In this document: one piece after another, positions 7,411 through 61,170 of the stretch | Layout of the letters: each line of letters begins with the position of its first letter | Numbering within the stretch: the first letter of the stretch is position 1 | Source: Halorussus caseinilyticus | Lineage (GTDB): Archaea; Halobacteriota; Halobacteria; Halobacteriales; Haladaptataceae | Assembly (NCBI RefSeq): GCF_029338395.1 | Contig: NZ_CP119809.1 | Span: 682,001-746,000 of the forward strand | Reading direction: 5' to 3' | DNA: 64,000 nucleotides | The notes under the pieces: model-generated | What the model was told of the DNA's origin: nothing | The model's input: the letters and a program-made list of their open reading frames with translations, nothing else | Databases searched by the model: none | Translations under genes and position numbers: made by a program

Positions 7411-7515
7411 GTTTCCTTCTGCGACGTTCACGGGACCGACGAGAAGGACGCTCGGAAACTTTCCTCGCTCCAACTCGTTACAACAACCGCAGGTATCGTG
7501 GCCAAGAACGTTTCT

Positions 7516-7569
7516 AAAGCCCCCGCCCGCTCGCGGTCGCTGAGCGACCGCGAACCGCGCGAGGGCTTT
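7516..7569 (+). repeat. Short folded copy of the dispersed hairpin element (copy A)
   Basis: This copy is reduced to a hairpin: outer AAAGCCC at 7516-7522 pairs with GGGCTTT at 7563-7569, and inside it CGCGGTCGC-TGA-GCGACCGCG (7532-7552) forms a 9-bp stem with a 3-nt loop. The left part (AAAGCCCCCGCCCGCTCGCGG) matches the end of the full elements at 39.6 and 57.3 kb. It lies in the spacer before the amidohydrolase-like gene. The remaining spacer 7411-7665 has no gene; the frame of the next gene is open through it but starts properly at 7666. Confidence 0.7.
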
Positions 7570-13729: not shown

Positions 13730-13880
13730 ACGCTCGGCCAACCAACTGTCGGGTGGGATAAAGGGGCCGCCCGCTGGCGGGCCGTAGGCCCGTGGTCGTC
13801 TCAGCGACCCCTATCTGAGACGAACGGAGTGAGTCGAAGATATGTCGCTGAGTGACCGCCAGCGGGCGGGGGCTTTCGAA
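13730..13880 (+). repeat. Full copy of the dispersed hairpin element (copy B)
   Basis: The main stem pairs CCGCCCGCTGGCGG (13767-13780) with CCGCCAGCGGGCGG (13856-13869), 14 of 14. The side hairpin is GGGCC-GTA-GGCCC (13779-13791). The inner stem pairs CTCAGCGAC (13800-13808) with GTCGCTGAG (13844-13852). Relative to the commonest copies, which have CGCTCGCGG and CCGCGAGCG, both strands of the main stem have changed in step (TGG with CCA). The left flank, with GCTCGGCCAACCAAC and GGGTGGGATAAAGGGG, is shared by other copies. An ATG inside the 3' part opens a frame, but it is not a plausible gene start. Confidence 0.85.
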
Positions 13881-13888
13881 ACCTCGTT

Positions 13889-14016
13889 CACTCCGACTCC
13901 GACTCCGACTCCGACTCCGACTCCGACTCCGACTCCGACTCCGACTCCGACTCCGACTCCGACTCCGACTCCGACTCCGACTCCGACTCCGACTCCGACT
14001 CCGACTCCGACTCCGA
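13889..14016 (+). repeat. Hexanucleotide microsatellite (ACTCCG)n
   Basis: About 21 uninterrupted copies of a 6-base unit follow directly after repeat copy B. Read in frame with the next gene they would encode a Thr-Pro tail, but the gene's own start lies downstream at 14169. Length variation by slippage is expected. Confidence 0.9.
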
Positions 14017-14168
14017 CGACAGAGACCGCAACGACAGCAGAAACAGCAACTCTAACACCGACGACTACAGAGACGACGAGGGCCGTCGAACCAATCCGGT
14101 CCCACAGAACCACCACGAGGTCCTCCCCCGATAAACACCCTTTTGCCCACGAAGGCCAATCTCCGGAC

Positions 14169-15603: not shown

Positions 15604-15719
15604 GGCTATATGCCTCCGTTCGAACCCAAGTAGTCAGCGCGTAAAGAGTTTTTCTCAACGACCTTTTGACCACGACCTTTTGCCGCGGGTGGCGCACGAG
15701 CGCGCCGCCCTTGCAAAAG

Positions 15720-15835
15720 CTCGACCAAAAACGCGTCGTCACCCTCTCCGGGCCGTGCCTCCGGCACGGCCTTCCGAGGGTTCCTCGGTCCGCTCGCTCG
15801 TCGCGCCTTCGGCGCTCCTCGCTCGCGGTAGATTG
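15720..15835 (+). repeat. Element with exchangeable hairpin (copy 1)
   Basis: The element begins AAAAACGCGTCGTCACC (15727) and carries a perfect hairpin GGCCGTGCC-TCC-GGCACGGCC (15751-15771), then GGTTCCTCGGTCCGCTCGCT (15779-15798) and an inserted small hairpin GCGCC-TTC-GGCGC (15803-15815). The same flanks occur at 52189-52262 around a different hairpin. The whole spacer 15604-15898, between the TRAM gene start and the radical SAM gene end, holds no gene. Confidence 0.7.
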
Positions 15836-29429: not shown

Positions 29430-29945
29430 CCAGCGAACGCTCGGTGTAACGTACCACGGTCGGGGAGGATGAAAGGGGCCGCCCGCTCGCGGTCACGCGA
29501 GGGTGCGCGGCGCTCCGCGCCGCGACTGCAAACGGTGCAACCGTGAGCGAGCGAGTGTGGCCTCGGGAGACGCGGTTTGTCTCCCGGCGTTTACCGTGGT
29601 CGTCTCAGCGACCCCTATCTGAGGCGGTCTGCGGAGCGAAGCGACGCAGACCTCGGCAGTCGCACGCCCGCACAGCGAAGCGAGCAGGAACGTCTGCCGG
29701 TGAACGGAATGAGTCGAAGATATGTCGCTGAGCGGCCGTCTCGTGAACGGATGTGAACGAGACCTCGGAAGTCACAGCCCGCGTGGTTCGAGAGCAACGC
29801 TCTCGTCATCCCGAAAATCTTCGATTTTCGGCGACAACGAAGTGAGCAGGAATGTCTTCCGGTGGCGAGCGGGCGGGGGCTTTCGAGGCGTTCGTCGCGG
29901 CGATTCCAGCGGTCGCGGTAACGACACGTAGCGAGACGACCGGCC
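29430..29945 (+). repeat. Expanded copy of the dispersed hairpin element (copy C)
   Basis: The left arm CCGCCCGCTCGCGG (29479-29492) and inner stem CTCAGCGAC (29604-29612) / GTCGCTGAG (29724-29732) match other copies, but the loops are enlarged by hairpin modules. These are CGCGGCGC-TCC-GCGCCGCG (29506-29524), CGGGAGAC/GTCTCCCG (29564-29586), GGTCTGCG/CGCAGACC (29626-29652), CGAGAGC-AAC-GCTCTCG (29789-29805) and CCGAAAATC-TTC-GATTTTCGG (29811-29831). A segment beginning ACCTCGGCAGTCGCA is repeated as ACCTCGGAAGTCACA. The right arm GCGAGCGGGCGG ends near 29876. No gene is supported in spacer 29302-30033, which separates convergent genes. Confidence 0.75.
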
Positions 29946-51781: not shown

Positions 51782-51803
51782 TCCGTGGCCGCTTACTTCG
51801 AGA

Positions 51804-52111
51804 TGGACTAGGTCGGGCAGTTAGGCCCTGCTCGTCACCCGCACTATGGTCTTCAGCGGGGGCCGAACCCCGGAAGAGTCCGGTCAGACCGTGCCGGGCC
51901 CCGGAAGCCGACTTCGAAGCCTCGTCCTACGGGGATAGCGGTCTCCGGCGGGCACTCGCAGGAGTGTCGCAGTCGGAGTTAGCCGGTGGTAATCCGTCAG
52001 GCGCGGAAGCGAGCAGCGGACCACTGGACAGCTATCGCTCGTAGGGCCGCGGGGTGGAGGACGCGACCGGGATTCCCCGGCACGGAACGCCGGGCGATTC
52101 CGGCTGTCCGC
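51804..52111 (+). ncRNA. Signal recognition particle (7S) RNA
   Basis: The sequence has the landmarks of archaeal SRP RNA. TAGGTCGGGCAGTTAGGCCC near 51809 is the typical 5' domain. GTCAGGCGCGGAAGCGAGCAG near 51997 (here shown to 20: GTCAGGCGCGGAAGCGAGCA) is the SRP54-binding helix 8 with its GGAA loop. The helix-6 hairpin is CCCCGGCACGGAACGCCGGG near 52076. GGAC at 51805-51808 and GTCC at 52106-52109 fit the closing 5'/3' helix, giving about 307 nt, as in other haloarchaea. The ends are approximate to a few bases. It partners SRP19/SRP54 to target proteins to SecY, whose SecE subunit lies at 23.1 kb. Confidence 0.93.
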
Positions 52112-52138
52112 ATTCATACCGAACTCTTACCACGCTCC

Positions 52139-52175
52139 AGACCGGCGAGCCGTCGGCTCGCCGGTCTTTCGCTTG
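52139..52175 (+). terminator. Hairpin terminator after the SRP RNA
   Basis: AGACCGGCGAGCC (52139-52151) pairs perfectly with GGCTCGCCGGTCT (52155-52167) around the loop GTC, followed by TTTCGCTTG. It lies about 28 nt after the predicted RNA 3' end. The stem may act in 3' end formation; a T-rich tail is only modest. Confidence 0.6.
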
Positions 52176-52185
52176 TAAAACTTCG

Positions 52186-52270
52186 ATGAAAAACACGGCG
52201 TCACCGCCTCAGAAGCGCCACAGGCGCTTCTTCGACGGTTCCTTGGTCCGCTCGCTTCGTTCGCGGTGCA
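52186..52270 (+). repeat. Element with exchangeable hairpin (copy 2)
   Basis: AAAAACACGGCGTCACC (52190-52206) is followed by a perfect hairpin AGAAGCGCC-ACA-GGCGCTTCT (52211-52231), then GGTTCCTTGGTCCGCTCGCT (52237-52256). Copy 1 at 15.73-15.80 kb has the same flanks but a wholly different 9-bp stem with TCC as loop. This copy lacks the small inserted hairpin present there. Confidence 0.7.
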
Positions 52271-52310
52271 GTATCTGGTACTCGACAGCACAGCAGAGAA
52301 GTGGTCAGAA

Positions 52311-57144: not shown

Positions 57145-57450
57145 CCCGATTTGGAAAGCCCCCGTCAGGTCGCTTCGTCTCGTGACAGCGACCGCCGGAC
57201 TCGCGATAACGAAGGCCCCGAAAGCCCCCGCCCGCTCGCTACGAACCGCGACAGCGACCGCCGGAATCGTGACAACGAACGCCCCGAAAGCCCCCGCCCG
57301 CTCGCGGTCGCTCAGCGACATATCCTCGCTCGCTCACTGCGTTCGCTCGCTCCGGATAGGGGTCGCTGAGGCGACCACGGCCTTCGGCCGCGAGCGGGCG
57401 GCCCCTTTACCCCGCCCACGGTGGTTTGGTCCACCGAGCGAACGCGACCC
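57145..57450 (-). repeat. Full dispersed hairpin element, inverted, with tandem end units (copy F)
   Basis: The main stem is CCGCCCGCTCGCGG (57294-57307) / CCGCGAGCGGGCGG (57388-57401). The inner stem is CTCAGCGAC (57311-57319) / GTCGCTGAG (57362-57370). The side hairpin is GGCC-TTC-GGCC (57379-57389). On one side at least two units of about 60 bases, each ending in CGAAAGCCCCCGCCCGCTCG, are in tandem (57191-57307). On the other side are TAAAGGGGC-type sequence and GGTGGTTTGGTCCACCGAGC. The element lies between divergent genes, so the GET3-like promoter region must lie beyond it. Confidence 0.8.
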
Positions 57451-59088: not shown

Positions 59089-61170
59089 ATGAACAGACGC
59101 GCGATAGCTCTGACCTATTTTTGGGGACTAGCTTGTTTGCTGACTGTGGGATTGACGACTGGCGCGGTGGTCGGCGGTGCGGCGGCCGCGGGTAACGCGC
59201 CGACGGCGACGTTCGACTACTCGCCGTCGGACCCGGTTCCCGACGAGACGGTCACCTTCGACGCGTCGTCGTCCACCGACGACGGCACCATAGAGGAGTA
59301 CGAGTGGGACTTGGACGGCGACGGCTACTTCGGCTACGACGGTTCGACGGTCACCCGGTCGTTCGACACCGCGGGCGAGTACGTCGTGACCCTTCGCGTC
59401 ACCGACGACGAGGGCAACAGCGTCACGACGACGAAAACCGTCTCGGTGACGAACGACGCGCCGACGGCGGCGTTCGACTACTCGCCGTCGGACCCGGTTC
59501 CCGACGAGACGGTCACCTTCGACGCGTCGTCGTCCACCGACTCGGACGGCAGTATCGAGGAGTACGAGTGGGACTTGGACGGCGACGGCTACTTCGGTTA
59601 CGACGGTTCGACGGTCACCCGGTCGTTCGACACCGCGGGTAGCTACACCGTCACGCTCCGAGTCACCGACAACGGCGACGTGACCACCAAAGAGACCAAG
59701 ACGGTTCGGGTCGGCAACGACGCGCCCAACGCCACGTTCACCTACTCGCCGTCGGACCCGGCACCCGACGACACGATTACGTTCGACGCCGGAGCGTCCT
59801 CGGACGCCGACGGGAACATCGAAGAATACGAGTGGGACTTCGACGGCGACGGCTACTTCGGCTACGACGGGTCCCAGAACACCTACTCGTTCGACACCGC
59901 GGGTAGCTACACCGTCACGCTCCGAGTCACCGACAACGGCGACGTGACCACCAAGGAGACCAAGACGATTCGAGTCGGCAACGACGCACCCAACGCCACG
60001 TTCACTTACTCGCCGTCGAACCCGTCGCCCGACGACACTATCACCTTCGACGCGGGGGCGTCCTCGGACGCCGACGGTCAAATTACCGAGTACGAGTGGG
60101 ACTTCGACGGTGACGGCTACTTCGGCTACGACGGGTCCCAAAACACCTACTCGTTCGACACCGCGGGCACTTACCCCGTCACGCTCCGGGTCACCGACAA
60201 CGGCGAGCAGACGGTGAAAGAAATCAGGACGATTCGGGTCGAGAACTCGGCCCCCGAACCCTCGTTCACCTTCTCGCCGACGAACCCCGCGCCCGACCAG
60301 ACGGTGACGTTCGACGCGGGGGCGTCCTCGGACGCCGACGGCCGGATTACCGAGTACGAGTGGGACTTCGACGGCGACGGCTACTTCGGCTACGACGGGT
60401 CCCAGACCACCTACACGTTCGACGAATCGGGCGTCCAGACGGTGACGCTCCGGGTCACCGACAACGGCGAGCGCACGGTGAAAAAGACGCTCCGCGTTCC
60501 GGTCGGCGACGTGGCGACGACCACGCCGGAGTCGCTGGCGTTGGAGGAGACGACCGAAACCACCGAGCGGACCGAAGCGCCCGAGACCGAGGAAACGCCG
60601 GAATCGACCGAAGACACCGCGTCGTCGGGCGTTGACGGCCAGTCGTTCGCCAACGGCGAGTTGTTCCAAGTCGCTCGCCTCTACACCCCCGAGAAGATAA
60701 TCGCGCCGGGGAGTCCGGGCCGACTCGCTGGCGCGTTCACGGCGGACGTGACCAACGAGAAACCGGTCAAGGTCCAGATTACGCTACAGGTTCCCAGCGG
60801 CATCCAGATTCAGGGCGGGAGTGACGTACAGAGTAGCGGCGGCGGACTCCCCACCGCGACGTTCGTCATCGCGCCCGGCGAGACCAAAGACATCTCGGCG
60901 GAGGTGGTCGGGTCCGACCCCGGCACGTACACGCTCCGGGCCGCTATCACCTACTTCCCGGTCGGCAACACCAGCGCCGCCAAGGAGTACGACGGACTCG
61001 AACTGAACTTCGAGGTGCGCGACGACGAGACCACCGAGTCCGCGAGCGACGAGGGGACCGAGACCGTCACAGAGACCGCGCCGACCGGCGACACGCCGGG
61101 ATTCTCGGTCGGTGTGACGGTGGTCGCACTGCTCGCGGCCGCGATGCTCGCGCGCAGAGCGGGAGAGTAG
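59089..61170 (+). CDS. Secreted five-PKD surface protein with PGF-CTERM anchor
   Basis: The 693-residue protein has a signal peptide (MNRRAIALTYFWGLACLLTV, cleavage after about 37), then five PKD domains of about 87-90 residues (about 37-475), each with TVTFDASSS or TITFDAGASS and EYEWDFDGDGYFGYDGS. The first two have DLDGDG, the rest DFDGDG. A Thr/Glu-rich linker follows (about 485-510). A further domain (about 520-640) has QITLQVPSGIQIQGGSD and DISAEVVGSDPGTYTLRAAI. The end DTPGFSVGVTVVALLAAAM plus LARRAGE is a PGF-CTERM tail, to be processed by archaeosortase and anchored to lipid. It probably forms part of the cell surface or an adhesin. Confidence 0.9.
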   Translation: MNRRAIALTYFWGLACLLTVGLTTGAVVGGAAAAGNAPTATFDYSPSDPVPDETVTFDASSSTDDGTIEEYEWDLDGDGYFGYDGSTVTRSFDTAGEYVVTLRVTDDEGNSVTTTKTVSVTNDAPTAAFDYSPSDPVPDETVTFDASSSTDSDGSIEEYEWDLDGDGYFGYDGSTVTRSFDTAGSYTVTLRVTDNGDVTTKETKTVRVGNDAPNATFTYSPSDPAPDDTITFDAGASSDADGNIEEYEWDFDGDGYFGYDGSQNTYSFDTAGSYTVTLRVTDNGDVTTKETKTIRVGNDAPNATFTYSPSNPSPDDTITFDAGASSDADGQITEYEWDFDGDGYFGYDGSQNTYSFDTAGTYPVTLRVTDNGEQTVKEIRTIRVENSAPEPSFTFSPTNPAPDQTVTFDAGASSDADGRITEYEWDFDGDGYFGYDGSQTTYTFDESGVQTVTLRVTDNGERTVKKTLRVPVGDVATTTPESLALEETTETTERTEAPETEETPESTEDTASSGVDGQSFANGELFQVARLYTPEKIIAPGSPGRLAGAFTADVTNEKPVKVQITLQVPSGIQIQGGSDVQSSGGGLPTATFVIAPGETKDISAEVVGSDPGTYTLRAAITYFPVGNTSAAKEYDGLELNFEVRDDETTESASDEGTETVTETAPTGDTPGFSVGVTVVALLAAAMLARRAGE

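Follow-up and report, generated by a model that had tools for sequence, protein, structure and literature searches.

A three-hairpin intergenic element of haloarchaea with exchangeable hairpins in a constant frame at gene 3' ends

In integron attC sites, the outer boxes are conserved and the palindrome at the centre is variable in both sequence and length. A conserved stem is the usual hallmark of interspersed palindromes; in the element described here, the frame is conserved and the stem is free. Among haloarchaeal repeats, the PATEs, SMRs and MITEs of Haloquadratum are transposase-free and are classed by the sequence of their ends and cores (PMC3119063). In Haloferax volcanii, T stretches terminate transcription (T5C at 95%), one tested hairpin gave 59% termination, and hairpins are located upstream of 503 termination sites (PMC7237163).

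Two spacers at 15.7 and 52.2 kb of the 64,000-nt stretch of Halorussus caseinilyticus DNA analysed here (the window) were found, on reading outward from both, to be copies of one element of approximately 150 nt, which consists of three successive hairpins, designated P1, P2 and P3, joined by conserved linkers (Table 1). The P1 basal stem is of the type NNNNCTTTTGC/GCAAAAGNNNN, with a T-tract on either strand; P2 comprises a basal stem ACCN/N'GGT, followed by a constant internal loop CCTC/TCGA and a free stem above it; and P3 is a G+C-rich hairpin. The T-tract measures 4-5 nt and lies within the P1 stem, on the sense strand before the hairpin and not after it. CCTTTT directly follows the gene end on the + strand, and TTTTTGGTCGAGCTTTTG comes after the P2 hairpin on the opposite strand. 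The 52.2-kb copy starts approximately 6 nt past the end of the SRP (7S) RNA gene, while the 15.7-kb copy is preceded by an extra T-tract resembling an earlier element's 5' end, the start being a single T-tract in five other species with an element at the orthologous site. Single-strand folds of the window copies gave z values of -3.62 (52128-52272) and -3.95, and their minimum-energy structure for the whole stretch does not keep some of the modules apart. In one genus of family f10, P2 has shrunk to ACCCCC-TTC-GGGGGT in an unchanged frame, which raises the possibility that the variable P2 stem extends a short basal hairpin.

Table 1. Features of the two window copies of the element and the adjoining RNA gene (window coordinates)
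Feature	Position	Strand	Basis
SRP (7S) RNA gene, upstream of 52.2-kb copy	51801..52113	+	Rfam RF01857, 190.7 bits (cut-off 96.5)
52.2-kb P1, basal stem CGAACTCTTAC/GTAAAACTTCG	52120..52185	+	direct reading; basal-stem covariation, 60 copies
52.2-kb P1, inner hairpin AGACCGGCGAGCC-GTC-GGCTCGCCGGTCT	52139-52167	+	direct reading
52.2-kb linker ATGAAAAACACGGCGTC	52186..52202	+	conserved among copies; CGTC columns invariant in A2 alignment
52.2-kb P2, basal stem ACCG/CGGT, internal loop CCTC/TCGA	52203..52239	+	covariation; model R1 match, 91.3 bits
52.2-kb P2, variable 9-bp stem AGAAGCGCC-ACA-GGCGCTTCT	52211-52231	+	
52.2-kb linker TCCTTGGT and P3 CCGCTCGCTTCGTTCGCGG	52240..52266	+	direct reading; conserved in copies
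15.7-kb extra T-tract TTTTGACCA, ahead of P1	15664..15672	+	alignment of six orthologous sites
15.7-kb P1, CGACCTTTTGC...GCAAAAGCTCG around G+C-rich hairpin	15673..15723	+	window scan; 0 matches in 10 shuffles
15.7-kb linker ACCAAAAACGCGTCGTC	15724..15740	+	direct reading
15.7-kb P2, basal stem ACCCTC/GAGGGT	15741..15781	+	direct reading; flank match; model match
15.7-kb P2, variable stem GGCCGTGCC-TCC-GGCACGGCC	15751-15771	+	
15.7-kb P3, CCGC...GCGCC-TTC-GGCGC...GCGG	15790..15828	+	direct reading; also in 2725-kb copy

An earlier, sequence-only reading of this DNA had reported that the two spacers share flanks and that each holds a perfect 9-bp stem with a 3-nt loop. Both observations hold: GGTTCCTNGGTCCGCTCGCT occurs exactly at 15779-15798 and 52237-52256, a match beyond chance (0.09 expected at <=3 mismatches; two matches in 0 of 100 shuffles), and direct reading bore out the stems and loops. 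Chance similarity of the flanks is ruled out by these shuffles, by the class-wide P2 units and by model matches. Unmentioned in that reading were the basal stem enclosing each P2 hairpin (ACCCTC/GAGGGT at 15.7 kb; ACCG/CGGT at 52.2 kb), the equally variable upstream hairpin P1 with its T-tract/A-tract basal stem, the third hairpin (P3) downstream, and the adjoining SRP RNA gene. The flank search that it proposed was run and returned many further copies, both in the window genome and in other haloarchaea. Flanks without a hairpin between them, which it had named as contrary evidence, were absent among 49 distinct P2 units, about ten of which carry an imperfect or short hairpin. The constant geometry that it had put forward survives in part: the 9-bp stem with a 3-nt loop is indeed the commonest form (13 of the 49 P2 units), but the geometry is only approximate, with 8/3 (n=8) and 11/3 (n=6) forms and a wide range.

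The fold of the element is maintained while its hairpin sequence is free, and the strong selection for folding that had been suspected is reflected in strong covariation in P1 and P2. A P2 alignment was built from 24 copies of fixed-length classes, its structure being a 9-bp upper stem over a 4x4 internal loop (CCTC/TCGA) and the basal stem ACCN/N'GGT; paired cells make up 96.8% of it, as compared to 78.5% in shuffles. Its covariation score of 0.415 compares with 0.096 +/- 0.019 when shuffled (0 of 500, a count that is not a probability since some alignment rows are related) and with a maximum of 0.071 on sliding the 3' partners. The 49 P2 units, which came from a class-wide search and were picked by their flanks alone, blind to the stretch between the frames, have a longest perfect stem of 7.84 bp on average versus 3.99 when shuffled, and 39 of them individually beat 95% of their own shuffles. 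Their outer variable pair (C:G 32, G:C 7, T:A 5, A:T 3, T:G 2) is Watson-Crick in 47 cases, where 24 would be expected by chance. Similarly, the outer three pairs of the P1 basal stem are Watson-Crick in 158 of 180 instances across 60 copies (shuffled mean 100, maximum 116), the types present being CGA/TCG, GAA/TTC, CAA/TTG, CCA/TGG and GTA/TAC.

G-U pairs are scarce in the variable P2 arms, numbering approximately 3 in approximately 355 pairs versus 10.9% in predicted SRP RNA folds, a contrast that is suggestive only, given that the methods differ and the P2 set was required to be palindromic. The non-Watson-Crick pairs of these arms are few, three G-U against two A-C, with no clear G-U excess, and nearly all of the 45 C-A cells in the pair tally belong to the constant internal loop and not to the variable arms. 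This scarcity would fit hairpins that were copied as units, or stems under strong selection to be stable, and lends no support to slow drift through G-U intermediates. Certain P2 copies, such as L099, L107 and L179, show recurrent facing TC dinucleotides inside otherwise paired arms, i.e., AGTC...TCCT in place of AGGA...TCCT, as if a short part of an arm had been inverted.

Hairpins are exchanged at fixed sites, and also between the P1 and P2 positions, in agreement with the earlier suggestion of a module replaced as a unit: they differ within the same frame at orthologous sites, and one and the same core is found in P1 and in P2. Three orthologous sites, those of the SRP RNA, the PolD large subunit and a radical SAM gene, were traced through the genomes of the genus with the neighbouring genes as anchors. 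At the SRP RNA site (52.2 kb in the window), the window genome (G000), G007 and G010 have the same linkers with wholly or partly different P1 and P2 modules, G006 and G008 carry another second module within the same linkers, and G001 and G002 have no element. At the PolD site, the element is situated 0-4 nt past the stop codon, with differing hairpins, in nine genomes (G000, G004, G007, G008, G009, G010, G021, G023 and G024), and is absent from seven of the 16 sites read (G001, G003, G005, G006, G012, G022 and G025). For example, G004 and G009 have their 5' and 3' flanks in common there and an almost identical P1, with unrelated second modules and a different P3. At the radical SAM site (15.7 kb in the window), G002, G004, G006, G007 and G009 carry other hairpins in the same place.

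Copies within the window genome are related in the same manner, those at 495 and 672 kb having an identical P1 and a different P2, and those at 15.7 and 2725 kb having the stretch from linker to P3 in common and a different P1. Four occurrences of the core GAAGCGCC-NNN-GGCGCTTC are found in the 4.39-Mb genome, all within the element; three are P2 hairpins and one is a P1 hairpin, and each has a different loop. The loops differ where the arms agree, which argues for selection on pairing after exchange.

Further variants of the architecture were observed. Copies L177, L185, L117 and L125, which follow PolD or SRP RNA genes, have alternative second modules in place of P2 within the same linkers, for example GGCGGTCGTCCCGCC...GATCCTCCCTTGGTCC and GGCGCTCCTCCC...GGTCGTCGCTTTGTCC, while L009, L099, L123 and L182 have an optional extra hairpin ACACCGGAAG...CTTCCGAGC and a second small hairpin between the P1 linker and P2. 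The copies G010:C3:286955 (+) and G010:C3:288148 (-), which are oppositely oriented and separated by 1.1 kb, have hairpins that differ solely by inversion of the centre (GCGAAGC vs GCTTCGC), and L092-L094 (G000:C1:2928634-2928846) represent three tandem 98-nt units with AAAAGCTGGACCAAAA that are P1-like and have no P2.

The window genome (five contigs, 4.39 Mb) holds at least 15 copies with E below 1e-4, found by the flank pattern and then by a covariance model, all of them on contig 1; rich genomes have 15-18 copies each. Among the 17 other genomes of the genus that were searched, several have copies that agree in location and sequence with named Halorussus records. The same frame occurs across several haloarchaeal families, the element being present also in records of Halobaculum, Natrinema, Haloterrigena, Halomarina, Halobellus and Halostagnicola. 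By the strict pattern it was detected in at least 24 of 194 genomes of the class and at least 11 of 65 genera, counts that are lower bounds because the exact frame is required. The model search of 156 genomes scored the best 32 or fewer candidates per genome under strict filters, and absence from it is accordingly weak evidence. Other repeats of the window include a second dispersed family with a constant part GCGAGCGGGCGGGGGCTTTCGAGG or the complement-like AAAGCCCCCGCCCGCTCGC (7464-7548, 29865-29934, 39699-39834, 44965-45049 and 57169-57319), some copies of which lie in tandem 66 nt apart; a 264-nt repeat in five tandem copies at 59188-60543, 66-86% like the reference copy and probably protein-coding; and low-complexity arrays of GTCGTC-type units (44500-44964) and of ACTCCG-type units (13866-14047), the latter encoding a Thr-Pro repeat.

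The copies are placed at gene 3' ends. Genes near 48 copies were predicted by a simple codon model trained on the window, in which single calls may be wrong, and the strands of the upstream and downstream genes are ++ in 18, -- in 13, +- in 13, -+ in three and +? in one, divergent gaps thus rarely holding an element. A coding origin is ruled out, as these 48 copies are intergenic. Where the upstream gene is on the same strand, P2 lies 63-90 nt past the stop codon in 21 of 32 copies, and P1 therefore starts close to the stop; the element start is often within approximately 10 nt of the stop codon, the P1 basal pairs can take in stop-codon bases, and CCTTTT is found a few nt past the stop codons in many copies. 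The upstream genes, named from reading their sequences and not from a family search, include those for thermosome, Cdc48, DnaJ, the PolD large subunit, a PAC2-type protein, a PAPS-reductase-like protein and release factor 1, of which the thermosome, PAC2-type and PAPS-reductase-like genes have the element at their 3' end in more than one family. SRP RNA is followed by the element or a P1-like module in several families, though not in most genomes, and two copies adjoin the 3' ends of apparent tRNA genes. The element is dispensable: of the sites read, 7 of 16 at PolD and 15 of 17 at the thermosome lack it, as do most SRP genes of haloarchaea. At the thermosome site its left edge is the stop codon, the right edge is not clean, and no target duplication was seen.

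Taken as a structured haloarchaeal gene-end module, the element may serve two-way transcription termination or insulation, with hairpins exchanged through its linkers, a reading to which we assign an even chance. Such a module would end or insulate transcription arriving from either side, its hairpins blocking read-through or protecting the RNA 3' end, and ectopic recombination (gene conversion) via the conserved linkers would swap a hairpin with function kept, since only the fold of the upper stems would matter. Both the role and this route of exchange are inferred. In favour of this reading are the maintained fold, the exchange of hairpins, the placement of the copies and the termination by T stretches and by a hairpin in Haloferax volcanii (PMC7237163). 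Weighing against it, tandem copies show no clear preference of orientation (18 sense versus 13 antisense), which fits only a two-way element, the T-tract is short and lies within the P1 stem ahead of the sense-strand hairpin, many orthologous genes are without the element, and the few G-U and A-C pairs do not establish strand-specific RNA selection. If the element terminates transcription, RNAs would be expected to end at the CCTTTT tract or, on the opposite strand, at TTTTTGGTCGAGCTTTT. More tentatively, and at somewhat less than even probability, the element could be a class-wide archaeal 3'-end device that is conserved as a fold, its hairpin cassettes moving between P1 and P2 and between genes by recombination via the constant linkers, and that provides SRP RNA, tRNA and housekeeping genes with a two-way terminator.

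It is conceivable, if on the whole doubtful, that the element is instead a REP/BIME-like repeat, largely selfish or neutral, which is tolerated at gene 3' ends while insertion elsewhere is harmful, and whose palindromes persist through copying from arm to arm and from copy to copy. The copies are scattered, vary in presence from species to species and are mosaics of module types, bacterial REPs likewise favour unidirectional and convergent gaps and gene 3' ends (PMC3733652), and the near absence of G-U in the P2 arms suits copying at the DNA level. Such a repeat would, however, account less readily for the recurrence of the element at some gene 3' ends in different families, for a 5' end that adjoins stop codons and P1 basal pairs that can include their bases, for a constant internal loop and linkers resembling a recognition sequence, or for a mere 15-18 copies per rich genome. 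The conserved loop and linkers, the covarying stems and the several copies after chaperone and other housekeeping genes would also suit a stabilising or regulatory RNA element of the 3' UTR, with a protein recognising the CCTC/TCGA loop and linkers and no role in termination; this is improbable, as both neighbours lie on the opposite strand in 13 of 31 tandem copies, there is no G-U excess, and genes whose RNAs have mature 3' ends, those for SRP RNA and the apparent tRNAs, are also followed by copies. Most improbable of these is a non-autonomous single-stranded DNA mobile element recognised by its hairpins, i.e., a PATE or IS200/IS605-like remnant or an attC-like folded site: palindromes near the ends, a fixed 5' end and the lack of an evident target duplication in the thermosome comparison agree with it, as does the presence of PATEs and small mobile repeats in Haloquadratum (PMC3119063), yet none of the copies was seen enclosing a gene or lying in a cassette array, and conservation is lowest in the hairpins, the part that a transposase would recognise.

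Should the element end transcription, as the gene-end module reading proposes, it would represent a recognisable structured terminator for haloarchaea, signals of this class being poorly defined in archaea, and, with its strong covariation, a candidate new RNA family. Since the stem is free and the frame conserved, natural experiments at orthologous sites allow the role of the fold to be separated from that of the sequence, and the element is a measurable case of module exchange among dispersed short repeats.

At the gathering score, Rfam 15 matched only the SRP RNA at 51.8 kb and gave nothing in seven loci containing copies, and the open-licence PMC literature on haloarchaeal intergenic repeats and consensus strings contained no description of the element. 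H/ACA or C/D guide RNAs were rejected, as no consistent box motif was found in the linker sequence, the only part considered. As with REPs in general, the element is extragenic, located at gene 3' ends and scarce between divergent genes, and it has in common with REPs and BIMEs (PMC3733652) short interspersed palindromes, unidirectional or convergent gaps, gene 3' ends and a mosaic composition. An invariant unpaired CGTC ahead of the P2 basal stem (A2 columns 11-14) recalls the CGTC-tagged REPs. However, the defining features of CGTC-tagged REPs and BIMEs, as tested, are lacking. The stem of CGTC-tagged REPs has 8-9 bp and starts with two A/T pairs, whereas that of the element starts with A-T, C-G and C-G, followed by the internal loop; their loops are 4-5 nt and their tail is CCA-like, whereas the element has loops of mostly 3 nt and a TCCT tail. 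BIMEs alternate the orientation of palindromic units, while the copies read have different modules in the order P1-P2-P3, and REP families are defined by stems and loops, while here the linkers and internal loop are constant and the arms almost free. No haloarchaeon is mentioned in the account of CGTC-tagged REPs, in which the term 'Halo' is absent (PMC3733652).

The Haloquadratum PATEs, SMRs and MITEs are likewise short, non-coding, strain-variable haloarchaeal repeats with palindromes, but the palindrome sequence of the present element is exchangeable and its site is a gene end (PMC3119063). Integron attC sites offer an analogy of form only, a conserved frame around a variable palindrome, with no cassettes, arrays or integrase seen with the element. 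In an intrinsic terminator of the bacterial type, the T run comes immediately after a G+C-rich hairpin, whereas the sense-strand T run of the element precedes the hairpin and the T5 of the other strand comes approximately 10 nt after P2. The terminators of Haloferax volcanii (PMC7237163) are similarly intergenic after genes, with a T stretch near the gene end, the run of the element being only 4-5 T; unlike them, the element is a three-hairpin composite with a frame shared across families and a T-tract inside a stem. The element is thus REP-like in its placement and resembles the archaeal T-stretch terminators in its T-tracts.
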